Assembly: GCA_003551435.1 (NCBI GenBank)
Contig: PUMQ01000011.1
Span: 1-36,885 of the forward strand
Reading direction: 5' to 3'
From: Candidatus Nealsoniibacteriota bacterium
GTDB lineage: Bacteria; Patescibacteriota; Minisyncoccia; Minisyncoccales; PWPS01
Length of the DNA stretch: 36,885 bases
Part shown: one piece after another, positions 30,117 to 33,328 of the stretch
How positions within the stretch are numbered: position 1 is the first letter of the stretch
How the letters are laid out: each line of letters begins with the position of its first letter
Notes under the pieces: generated by a model
What the model was told of the DNA's origin: nothing
Databases searched by the model: none
The model's input: only the letters and a program-made list of their open reading frames with translations
Position numbers and translations under genes: made by a program

Positions 30117-31658
30117 ATGGATAGAAAAAAGAAAAACGAAATTCGCGTAAGGTTTGCTCCTTCCCCGACGGGGAATCTGCATATCGGAGGAGCAAGAACG
30201 GCTCTTTTTAACTATCTTTATGCCAAGAAAAACAAGGGCCGGTTTATTTTGCGCATAGAAGACACGGATAGAGAGAGATCAACCAAAGAGTACGAAGATA
30301 ATATTATGCGAAGTTTAGAGTGGCTTGAAATAAACAGCGACGAAGGGCCCTTCCGGCAAAGCGAGAGAGAAGAGATTTATAAAAAACATATTGAAAGACT
30401 GCTTGAAGAAGGGAAAGCGTACTACTGTTTTTGCACCAGAGAGCATCTTGAAAAAATGCGCAACAAACAGAGAGAGAAAAAAGAGCCACCCCGGTACGAA
30501 GGGAAGTGTTTCTCTTTAACCCAGAAAGAAAAAGAAAGGCTTTTGAAAGAAAAGAAAAACTTTTCCATTCGCCTTAAAATTCCGGAAAACGAGATTTTGG
30601 AGTTTGACGACCTTGTCCGGGGAAAAGTAAAATTCAATACCAAAGATATAGGCGGAGATTTTGTGATAGCAAGAGATGATTTTTCCGCCCTTTATAATTT
30701 CGTTTGTGCCGTTGACGATATGGATATGGAAATTACTCACGTTATCCGCGGAGAGGATCACATCTCAAATACCCCAAAACAGATACTTATTCAACGCGCT
30801 TTGGGTTTTCTTTCTCCCCGGTACGCTCATATCGCTATGCTTCTTGGAAGCGATAAGAGTAAGCTTAGCAAGCGCCATGGAGCGGCATCAGTAACCGAGT
30901 ACAAGGAAAAAGGATATCTGCGAGAAGCGTTAATCAACTTTATCGCTCTTCTGGGCTGGAGGCCGCCCGGAGAAAGAGAAATATTTTCCTTAACCGAGCT
31001 TATAGAAACATTCTCGCTCAAAGACTGCCAAAGGTCTGGAGCCGTATTTGACCTTCAAAAACTGGATTACCTGAATGGTTATTACATAAGAAACATGAAA
31101 AGAGAGGATCTGGTAAACGCCTGCATTCCTTATCTTGTTAAAGCGGGACTTATTGAAGCGAAATTTGAAGAAGACCGTTATCCGCCCGCTTACGGAGGTG
31201 TTGTTCCTCAAGCATCGTATTATGTTCCGGGAAAAAAAGAAAAAATATCTTTTCAAAAACTTGGAGAAATAATTTCTCTATATCAGGAAAGAATGAAAGT
31301 TCTTTCGGAGGTAGGGGAGTTTACAGACTACTTTTTCAAAGAGAATATTGATTACCAGAAGGAGCTTCTTTTTTGGAAAGATGCAAAGGAAGAAGACACG
31401 AGAAAGGCGCTGGAAAAAGCCGCCAGCATTCTTTCAAAGGTTGAAAACTGGAAGAGGGAAGAGATTGAGGAAAAGATGATTAAAGAGGCGAGTAAGGATA
31501 AAGATAAAGGAAAGCTTCTCTGGCCAGTAAGAGTAGCTTTAAGCGGAAAAAAGGCCTCTGCCGGTCCTTTTGACATTATGGAGGTGCTAGGTCCCGAAAC
31601 TACCTTTAAGCGCCTTAAATCGGCTAAAAATGCGTTAAAAAGGGCGGAAAACCAATGA
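30117..31658 (+). CDS. gltX: Glutamyl-tRNA synthetase
   Basis: VRFAPSPTGNLHIGGARTALFNYLYAKK (HIGH), KLSKRHGAASV (KMSKS variant), FILRIEDTDRERS. Confidence 0.93.
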   Translation: MDRKKKNEIRVRFAPSPTGNLHIGGARTALFNYLYAKKNKGRFILRIEDTDRERSTKEYEDNIMRSLEWLEINSDEGPFRQSEREEIYKKHIERLLEEGKAYYCFCTREHLEKMRNKQREKKEPPRYEGKCFSLTQKEKERLLKEKKNFSIRLKIPENEILEFDDLVRGKVKFNTKDIGGDFVIARDDFSALYNFVCAVDDMDMEITHVIRGEDHISNTPKQILIQRALGFLSPRYAHIAMLLGSDKSKLSKRHGAASVTEYKEKGYLREALINFIALLGWRPPGEREIFSLTELIETFSLKDCQRSGAVFDLQKLDYLNGYYIRNMKREDLVNACIPYLVKAGLIEAKFEEDRYPPAYGGVVPQASYYVPGKKEKISFQKLGEIISLYQERMKVLSEVGEFTDYFFKENIDYQKELLFWKDAKEEDTRKALEKAASILSKVENWKREEIEEKMIKEASKDKDKGKLLWPVRVALSGKKASAGPFDIMEVLGPETTFKRLKSAKNALKRAENQ

Positions 31659-31951
31659 AAAAGGTATTTTTACTTATTATCATCCTCGTTTTCACTTACT
31701 TTGCCGTTTCCTTCCTTAAAACGGAAGAAAAGGAAGGATATGCATATCTTTTAAAAGAAAGAGCAGTTGACCTTACAGGGCAAATAAAAGAGAGAGCCGG
31801 TATTTTTTTAGAGGAAAGAAGAGAGGCGGTAGAGGAAGAACTGGAAAAAGAAAAAGAAAAAGTTCAAGATAAAGTAGAAGAAAAGACAAAGAAAGTAAGA
31901 ACAGGTTTTTGGGAAAGAGTAAGAGGGTTTTTTACCAATTTACTACCCTAA
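31655..31951 (+). CDS. Small membrane-anchored, charged coiled-coil-like protein, unknown function
   Basis: N-terminal TM KKVFLLIIILVFTYFAVSFL, then E/K-rich segment EEELEKEKEKVQDKVEEKTKK; overlaps the gltX stop. Confidence 0.6.
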   Translation: MKKVFLLIIILVFTYFAVSFLKTEEKEGYAYLLKERAVDLTGQIKERAGIFLEERREAVEEELEKEKEKVQDKVEEKTKKVRTGFWERVRGFFTNLLP

Positions 31952-31973: not shown

Positions 31974-32002
31974 TTGACAGTGGGAGGGATAGGGGTTATA
32001 CT
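31974..32002 (+). promoter_or_regulatory. Near-consensus sigma70 promoter (TTGACA-N17-TATACT) upstream of the Xer gene
   Basis: TTGACA 31974-31979, TATACT 31997-32002, 17-nt spacer. Confidence 0.75.
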
Positions 32003-32027
32003 TCGTATAAGATAACTTTATCGAAGT
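32000..32027. promoter_or_regulatory. Candidate dif-like Xer recombination site
   Basis: ACTTCGTATAA-GATAAC-TTTATCGAAGT: 28 bp with 11-6-11 architecture resembling bacterial dif (compare B. subtilis dif ACTTCCTAGAATATATATTATGTAAACT from memory). Confidence 0.45.
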
Positions 32028-32051
32028 TACAAAGTAACTTCTGATAAAGTT
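32014..32051 (+). repeat. 17-bp near-perfect inverted repeat in the Xer gene leader
   Basis: AACTTTATCGAAGTTAC (32014-32030), AAA loop, GTAACTTCTGATAAAGTT (32034-32051), one bulged base. Confidence 0.9.
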
Positions 32052-32054
32052 AGC

Positions 32055-32098
32055 GTAGATTATGCGTAAAGCAGAATACTCTGTTTCGCATAATCTAC
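32055..32098 (+). repeat. Second inverted repeat in the Xer gene leader
   Basis: GTAGATTATGCG (32055-32066) and CGCATAATCTAC (32087-32098), perfect 12-bp arms, with nested CAGA-ATAC-TCTG (32072-32083). Confidence 0.92.
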
Positions 32099-32139
32099 TT
32101 TAGTAAAGTTACAAGGAAATCTCTAAATACCATCAGTCT

Positions 32140-33093
32140 ATGAAAAAAAGTAATACCCCTATTATTGAACATATTCCGCGCTTTCTTGAGTACTTGGACA
32201 TCGAGAAAGGTGTTTCCAATAAAACTCAAGAAACCTACACCCGCTTTTTGCAGAGCTTTATAAACTGGCTTGAGCAAAACAAACTGTCCGGACTAAAACC
32301 CCACGAAATTACCGACAACCACATATGGAAATACAGAGTATTTCTTTCCAAAAAAACAACTCCCAAAAAAGAACCCATCAAAAAAAAGACCCGCAATTAT
32401 TACCTTATTGCCCTTCGCGCTCTTCTTAATTACTTCGCCGACCGGGATATTTCGTCTTTGCCGGCAGAAAAAGTCAAACTCACCAAAGAAGACAAAGAAA
32501 GGGTTGTAAAGTTTCTGGACCTTGCTCAAATTGAGAAACTTCTTCACGCGCCTAACACTTCCAACAAAGTCGGGCTTCGTGATAGAGCTATATTGGAAAC
32601 CCTTTTTTCCACCGGCTTGCGCGTTTCAGAGTTAATTGACCTGAACCGTGATCAGATTAAAATAACTCGTGATACCGATATTTTGGAAGTTTCGGTAGTC
32701 GGAAAAGGAGGTCATCCTCGTACCGTCTACTTCTCCGAGCGCGCTATTAAGGCTCTTGGGCGCTATCTTAGAACAAGAAAAGACAATGATAAAGCCCTCT
32801 TTGTGCGGTACAAGGGCCCCAAAACAAGTCCTAGGCGCCTTACACCCCGATCGGTAGAAAGCATTGTTAAAAAATACGCCAAAATAGCCGGCATTCCGGT
32901 CATGACTACTCCCCACACTTTACGCCATAGTTACGCCACGGATCTTCTGGCCCAAGGAGTAGATTTGAGAGTAATTCAAGAGTTTTTAGGACACCGCAAC
33001 ATTGCTACTACTCAAGTCTATACACATATTACCAGCCAAAGGCTCAAAGAAATCCACAAGAAGCTTCACAGCGGAAGAAAAATAAAAGAGTAG
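32140..33093 (+). CDS. xerD: Tyrosine recombinase XerC/XerD family
   Basis: N-terminal core-binding domain; ATLFSTGLRVSELIDL (Arg I), TPHTLRHSYATDLLAQGVDLRVIQEFLGHRNIATTQVYTHIT (HxLRH, GH, Tyr). Confidence 0.92.
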   Translation: MKKSNTPIIEHIPRFLEYLDIEKGVSNKTQETYTRFLQSFINWLEQNKLSGLKPHEITDNHIWKYRVFLSKKTTPKKEPIKKKTRNYYLIALRALLNYFADRDISSLPAEKVKLTKEDKERVVKFLDLAQIEKLLHAPNTSNKVGLRDRAILETLFSTGLRVSELIDLNRDQIKITRDTDILEVSVVGKGGHPRTVYFSERAIKALGRYLRTRKDNDKALFVRYKGPKTSPRRLTPRSVESIVKKYAKIAGIPVMTTPHTLRHSYATDLLAQGVDLRVIQEFLGHRNIATTQVYTHITSQRLKEIHKKLHSGRKIKE

Positions 33094-33139
33094 CTTACCT
33101 ACCCTTGTTTACCTACTGGTATTTATACTTCGCATAATA

Positions 33140-33328
33140 TTAGGGATCACTTACTTTCTCCTGGTCTTTATGATAGATCGGTTCTTCAAATTGGAGGGGT
33201 TCTTTTTCTTCCATTTTGGCCATTATATACCCGAGAGAAAAAGAAAGCATAGCCACCAGAAAGACGCCTGTAAAAAGAAGGATATCCTTCTTGTTTTCTT
33301 TGACAAAATGCTTAAATTTTGATATCAT
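33140..33328 (-). CDS. Small single-TM protein, unknown function
   Basis: MISKFKHFVKENKKDILLFTGVFLVAMLSFSLGYIMAKMEEKEPLQFEEP. Confidence 0.55.
   Translation of the reverse strand: MISKFKHFVKENKKDILLFTGVFLVAMLSFSLGYIMAKMEEKEPLQFEEPIYHKDQEKVSDP
33300..33328 (+). promoter_or_regulatory. Near-consensus sigma70 promoter for rpmA (TTGACA-N17-TATCAT)
   Basis: TTGACA 33300-33305, TATCAT 33323-33328, 17-nt spacer. Confidence 0.7.

Follow-up and report, generated by a model that had tools for sequence, protein, structure and literature searches.

A probable dif site within the promoter of the sole detected Xer recombinase gene at the chromosome terminus of a Patescibacteriota genome

Between a near-consensus promoter and the start codon of a Xer recombinase gene, the genome of a Patescibacteriota bacterium carries a leader rich in palindromes, and the question that it raises is whether this leader holds the dif site at which chromosome dimers are resolved, an operator through which the recombinase controls its own gene, or both. 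The stretch of DNA analysed here (hereafter the window; 36,885 nucleotides) is contig 20 of 21 of a genome of 599,488 bp rated 100% complete, and its closest named relative locus is that of a Candidatus Nealsonbacteria bacterium. Taken as a whole, the locus is best explained, with a probability that we put at roughly 0.85, as the dif of a single-Xer system lying in the xer promoter, where FtsK would guide the resolution of dimers and xer would limit its own expression. Two protomers of the one Xer would occupy arms A and B of a 28-bp site; words of the (T)AGGGGAG type would guide FtsK, which would bring two copies of dif together at the septum; and Xer would recombine the paired copies, by which chromosome dimers would be resolved. 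Xer sitting on dif would also block the transcription of xer, making the supply of Xer self-limiting, and this block would be lifted once dif takes part in recombination or has just been replicated. Binding, recombination and autorepression are the steps of this scheme that we infer from sequence. Systems of this kind are known; what is new is the combination of dif with a phased promoter, candidate KOPS, polar satellite half-sites and a CTXphi-like hairpin, and no paper on dif or Xer in Patescibacteria was found within the literature collection searched. The scheme makes a concrete claim, namely that a chromosome-resolution recombinase would repress itself through its own recombination site.

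The 28-bp element (32000..32027, plus strand) is partly palindromic and reads ACTTCGTATAA-GATAAC-TTTATCGAAGT, with arm A at 32000-32010, a 6-bp centre and arm B at 32017-32027; the sequence-only reading had described the same dif-like 11-6-11 layout, and it agrees with ours to the base. A dif model was trained on 25 distinct sequences taken upstream of xer, across which a TCG.A.AA...T..A core is invariant, and the 11-6-11 layout is kept across the order. When 218 genomes of the order were scanned with this model, blind to position, it matched in 140, nearly always once per genome, and found no match in the other 78; about a quarter of the located genomes had trained the model, and the others constitute an independent test. 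The site is present as a single copy in the window's genome (E 1.9e-6). Among 105 relatives, dif is followed directly by a xer gene of like orientation in 101, the exceptions being G208 and three genomes whose contigs stop 6-116 bp behind dif (G006, G024 and G211), and the gap from dif to the xer ATG has a median of 35 bp, with inserts of more than 300 bp in five genomes. Outside the order but in the same class, 8 of 16 dif matches adjoin a xer gene, two of them divergently, and the adjacency is absent in some other orders of the class.

The position of the site on the chromosome was assessed from skew and word polarity in four single-contig genomes, two of them as complete chromosomes and the other two over 390-400 kb. 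In the complete chromosome G117 (a record in which 72 kb reads N), the cumulative GC-skew maximum at 422,269 is 37 bp from dif (422,291-422,321), and the cumulative peak within the 36.9-kb window is 57 bp from dif; the corresponding distance is 1.0 kb in G219, and 17 and 18.5 kb in G178 and G198. The strand switch of the word GGGGA falls at dif in all four chromosomes (-55..+59, -43..+488, -212..+229 and -265..+155 bp) and stays there even where the skew maximum is displaced by 17-19 kb; the polarity of G-rich words is a sharper terminus marker than GC skew. The suggestion made from the sequence alone, that the 28-mer is the dimer-resolution site, was thus borne out by its conservation upstream of xer across the order, its single copy and its location at the GC-skew terminus, and on these grounds we regard the element as almost certainly the chromosomal dif of a single-recombinase dimer resolution system.

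In two complete relatives, words of the (T)AGGGGAG type rank with the 7- and 8-mers of strongest strand polarity, and the most polarised 8-mers common to G117 and G198 are GTAGGGGA (38 leading, 3 lagging) and TAGGGGAG (50 leading, 5 lagging). The same polarity is seen in the window, where AGGGGA occurs 20 times on the plus and 4 times on the minus strand to the left of dif, and 0 and 5 times, respectively, to its right, and where the strand that carries TAGGGG changes within the interval from -24 to +142 bp around dif. Even the promoter spacer contains such candidate KOPS-like words, GGGAGGG and TAGGGG (31982..31995, plus strand), which point at dif and are opposed by a TAGGGG on the minus strand at 32156-32161. 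Since these G-rich words switch strand at dif as KOPS do, (T)AGGGGAG is a candidate KOPS and is predicted to orient FtsK; in E. coli the KOPS is GGGNAGGG instead. The dif motif, the candidate KOPS word and the terminus marker may be used to orient fragmented genomes of this large uncultured group.

The xer gene (32140..33093, plus strand) encodes a protein of 317 aa; no second tyrosine recombinase gene was detected in this complete-rated genome, which therefore has a single-recombinase Xer system. The protein combines a Phage_integrase domain with a SAM-like N domain, and its catalytic Arg, Lys, His-x-x-Arg, His and Tyr (RKHRHY) all align with those of E. coli XerD. In comparison with PDB entries it matches XerD (E 3e-38) and XerH (E 6e-13), and it stays below the curated NCBIfam cut-offs for XerC (230 against 335 bits), XerD (234/330), XerA (206/220) and XerS (124/267); it is no integron integrase (97.5 bits against a cut-off of 265). 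An FtsK with a gamma domain (96 bits, cut-off 30.6) is also encoded in the genome. Many relatives have an arm and centre, CGCATAATGTA, that match E. coli dif, and the window has CGTATAAGATA at this place. The system resembles E. coli XerCD/dif in site layout, arm sequence, the FtsK gamma domain and the polarised G-rich words converging on dif, and differs from it in having one recombinase rather than two and a site fixed to the recombinase gene. In these last respects it is like XerS/difSL of streptococci and lactococci, a modular system of one recombinase with a terminus site linked to its gene (PMC2731167, PMC5357621). However, difSL is a non-canonical site of 31 bp with an 11-bp centre, unlike the 11-6-11 site found here, and the window's Xer reaches only 123.9 bits against the XerS cut-off of 267. 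XerH/difH of Helicobacter and Campylobacter likewise comprises a single recombinase whose site is linked to the gene in most species (PMC2731167), but the site of the window has a different sequence and its protein is distant. The linkage of Xer and dif, expected at first to be unusual, is less so than was thought, since both XerS/difSL and XerH/difH form modules of this linked kind (PMC2731167, PMC9765430).

The promoter of xer consists of a -35 box TTGACA (31974..31979, plus strand) and, after a spacer of 17 bp, a -10 box TATACT (31997..32002, plus strand) which overlaps the first 3 bp of dif, and the xer ATG follows at 32140; this near-consensus promoter with its -10 box on the 28-mer had been recognized to the base from the sequence alone. 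It recurs, with a score of 12.8, in six genomes of the genus, where it is phased to dif and its -10 box begins 3 bp ahead of the site. More broadly, when the 80 bp upstream of dif were scanned for their best sigma-70 promoter, the score exceeded 8 in 79% of 101 genomes, as against 6% of shuffles. In 36 of the 80 promoter-bearing genomes the -10 box begins 17 bp before dif, which places dif over roughly bases 5-33 of the transcript. With dif either on the -10 box or at the very start of the transcribed region, bound Xer would block the transcription of xer. The phased promoter supports the earlier suggestion that Xer occludes its own promoter, the occlusion itself being what we infer, and on balance we favour a repression of xer by Xer bound at dif. 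Within the family to which the window belongs, G010, G012 and G013 show no good promoter over dif, and the operator role may therefore not be universal.

Further sites were missed by the sequence-only reading. Two exact 16-bp copies of ACTTCGCATAATATTA flank dif, each consisting of arm A only: one lies on the xer side (33127..33142, plus strand) and the other, on the opposite side, inside gltX (30299..30314, minus strand), and both read away from dif. Their 14-mer ACTTCGCATAATAT occurs exactly twice in the window's genome, at 30301-30314 (minus strand, gltX) and 33127-33140 (plus strand, behind xer). Around dif, a pattern of arm A followed by AATAT has 48 matches in 404,564 bp where 2.0 are expected, 47 of them outward; a scan of 216 genomes for the exact 16-mer gave 30 matches on dif-bearing contigs, all 30 outward. 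On contigs of the family carrying dif or xer every half-site match has the same polarity, and no match was found to the half-site pattern read backwards. Half-sites lie mostly 0.3-6 kb from dif, on either side. Within gltX, those codons under the half-site whose amino acid is unchanged (three codons only) are identical in three species, as compared with 32% of amino-acid-conserving codons of this kind. An interpretation of the half-sites as VGJphi-type integration scars was rejected because the order observed (dif, insert, half-site in the same direction, with an inverted one on the opposite side) is not that of VGJphi. Plain promoter operators were likewise rejected: half-sites do abut TTGACA in G058, G134 and G136, but the xer-side site of G117 lies between convergent genes. 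The half-site arm varies exactly with the dif arm within the window's family, but it does not do so in G033 or G161. A polar barrier or an FtsK-related element would require just such sites, reading outward to either side of the terminus. We therefore raise, as a speculative and rather unlikely reading, that dif is the centre of a polarised terminus box, in which Xer or a partner on the half-sites would form a polar element; this may be, for instance, a replication-fork barrier, an FtsK barrier or a loop anchor controlling xer. If this were true, the terminus, dimer resolution and the supply of the recombinase would be wired into one locus.

Between dif and xer, the window contains an optional long imperfect hairpin (32034..32113, plus strand) which, from its single-stranded DNA fold and a covariance model, resembles a folded attP or attC. 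It comprises an inverted, attP1-like dif-like site (32037..32070, minus strand; 12-11-11, with the 11-nt centre TCTACGCTAAC) and a direct, attP2-like one (32083..32109, plus strand; 11-5-11, with the 5-nt centre TCTAC and a degenerate arm B), and the two fold into one stem. The inverted-repeat arms 32055-32069/32084-32098 are 93% and the arms 32008-32022/32043-32057 are 87% complementary. The inverted repeats reported up to 32098, ahead of the xer ATG, are hence real, as are the arm-like half-sites at 32000, 32037 and 32083; what changes is the reading as two hairpins, which are better seen as an inverted and then a direct dif-like site, that is, one optional element with two inverted dif-like sites and spacers of 11 and 5 bp. 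The leader folds as RNA at -43.7 kcal/mol (z -6.4, a value that none of 200 shuffles reached), and the single-stranded DNA of 32028-32116 folds at -18.5 kcal/mol (z -6.9). The dif-to-ATG distance is 112 bp in the window versus 24-41 bp in insert-free relatives of the genus, and 164 bp in G001, which has a different leader. Absent from four genomes of the window's genus and from most of the order, the insert is found beside dif in genomes of several families. The same plan, with YGYAGATTNTGC as its core and a single bulged base at a constant column, is shared by the window, G006, G031, G113, G209 and G050; a covariance model (R2) matches the insert beside dif in G000, G006, G031, G112, G113, G050 and G209, and weakly in G183, the G112 and weak G183 matches having been found without training on them. 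The fold is weak in G031 (z -2.3) and no better than shuffles in G209 (z -0.7). In G006, two contig ends overlap and the unit is about 125 bp, which implies at least two tandem copies of the unit or a circle of it. Integron attC sites are folded sites with an extrahelical base and occur as tandem units, and the insert is alike in its bulge and in the tandem of G006. As with integron attI/attC, the gene for a Xer-related recombinase has a recombination site in its promoter region; unlike in integrons, there are no gene cassettes with an attC consensus and the enzyme is a housekeeping Xer at the terminus. In the attP(+) of CTXphi, too, a pair of inverted dif-like sites, one long-centred and the other short-centred, folds into a single stem beside a functional dif (PMC3089051), and the insert shows this very plan. 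It differs from attP(+) in its size (about 80-125 bp, without phage genes) and in its loop of 12-30 nt as compared with about 90 bp. Together with the polar half-sites, the CTXphi-like hairpin ties a housekeeping system to fork termination and to the borrowing of Xer by integrons and filamentous phages.

Two origins of the insert have about equal odds in our view, each being a tentative reading somewhat short of even. It may be an integration scar, or the minimal form of an integrating element, that arose when a folded single strand recombined with dif in the manner of CTXphi, leaving one functional dif and two non-functional inverted dif-like sites (a long-centre attP1 and a short-centre attP2), or it may be a functional xer leader, serving as an extra Xer-binding site whose arms are half a helical turn out of phase (11 versus 6 bp) or as an RNA structure that controls translation. 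The order of the sites and the asymmetry of their spacers (11 and 5 bp, as compared with 12 bp in attP1 and 6-7 bp in attP2 of CTXphi; PMC3089051) point to integration, as do the scattered distribution of the insert over distant families, its confinement to this one place in most of the genomes concerned, the tandem unit of G006 and the shared position of the bulge. However, no phage gene was found next to the insert and no Zot gene lies beside dif; Zot genes, considered as a sign of filamentous phages, were dropped as rare and never at dif. Scans of viral contigs gave 5 matches for the attP1-like core, 16 for the half-site and 5 for the dif consensus, which is near the level of chance as estimated by hand. 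Moreover, in each genome the inner arm B' is a copy of the resident dif arm, down to the private changes of G050, and such copying would not be expected of a foreign element without adaptation or gene conversion. Given the lack of phage genes and this copying of the resident dif, the insert may have a regulatory role or may have arisen by local template switching. A leader function agrees with the constant placement of the insert between dif and the xer start, always in one orientation, and with the covariation of paired positions (92% of cells paired, with 0 of 500 shuffles as high, in six sequences whose arms also follow dif), whereas it fits poorly with the four congeneric genomes, and the greater part of the order, in which the insert is absent and the xer leader is short and plain.

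Broader doubts concern whether the palindromic region is a recombination site at all. Were it only an operator or attenuator of xer, with the real dif elsewhere, a phased promoter and a strongly folded leader would be expected, as they are of any regulatory region; but an operator has no reason to sit at the terminus, and the single copy of the site at the switch of both skew and motif polarity, with its 11-6-11 layout kept across the order, makes this reading very improbable. That the palindromes and half-sites arose by chance in an AT-rich intergenic region draws on the observation that the window has 5 single 11-mer arms at one mismatch, where 3.4 are expected, so that such arms are no rarity in it. 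This origin is already refuted by the comparisons, in view of the order-wide conservation, the hairpin z below -6, the excess of half-sites over expectation with all but one of a single polarity and the uniformly outward exact set, and its probability is negligible. A dif in the xer promoter thus stays the preferred explanation.

Several other features were noticed near the terminus module. In the window, xer lies between genes for two small proteins whose N-terminal part includes a hydrophobic stretch (33140-33328, minus strand, and 31655-31951, plus strand); a family search returned none for the former and only a sub-threshold phasin match for the latter. In G117 (L093, 420,300-425,070), a reverse-transcriptase-like gene and an apparent toxin-antitoxin pair of the Panacea/RelE type, both recognized by eye, adjoin the module, and satellite half-sites lie between these genes and dif-xer. 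Four exact half-sites occur on four contigs of G210, where a transposase that by eye looks REP-associated (Y1) is located between two direct copies of ATAATGTCGCTTAATATTTCCTTGCCCTCGGCA (L166, 2477-3418); this sequence is a half-site-like word plus a small palindrome, and similar words are present in G209. Inserts of 0.5-1.7 kb with small open frames part dif from xer in L026 (G034), L158 (G202), L161 (G207), L196 (G205) and G198 (near 244.3 kb), and a half-site is found just upstream of the xer start in four of these five and inside the insert in G205. Finally, a leader word of about TTGCTTAAAACGCATTTTACGGCTTC recurs some 50 bp before xer in one genus (L180 of G131, L184 of G128, L170 of G129 and L202 of G132) and is doubled in G131.
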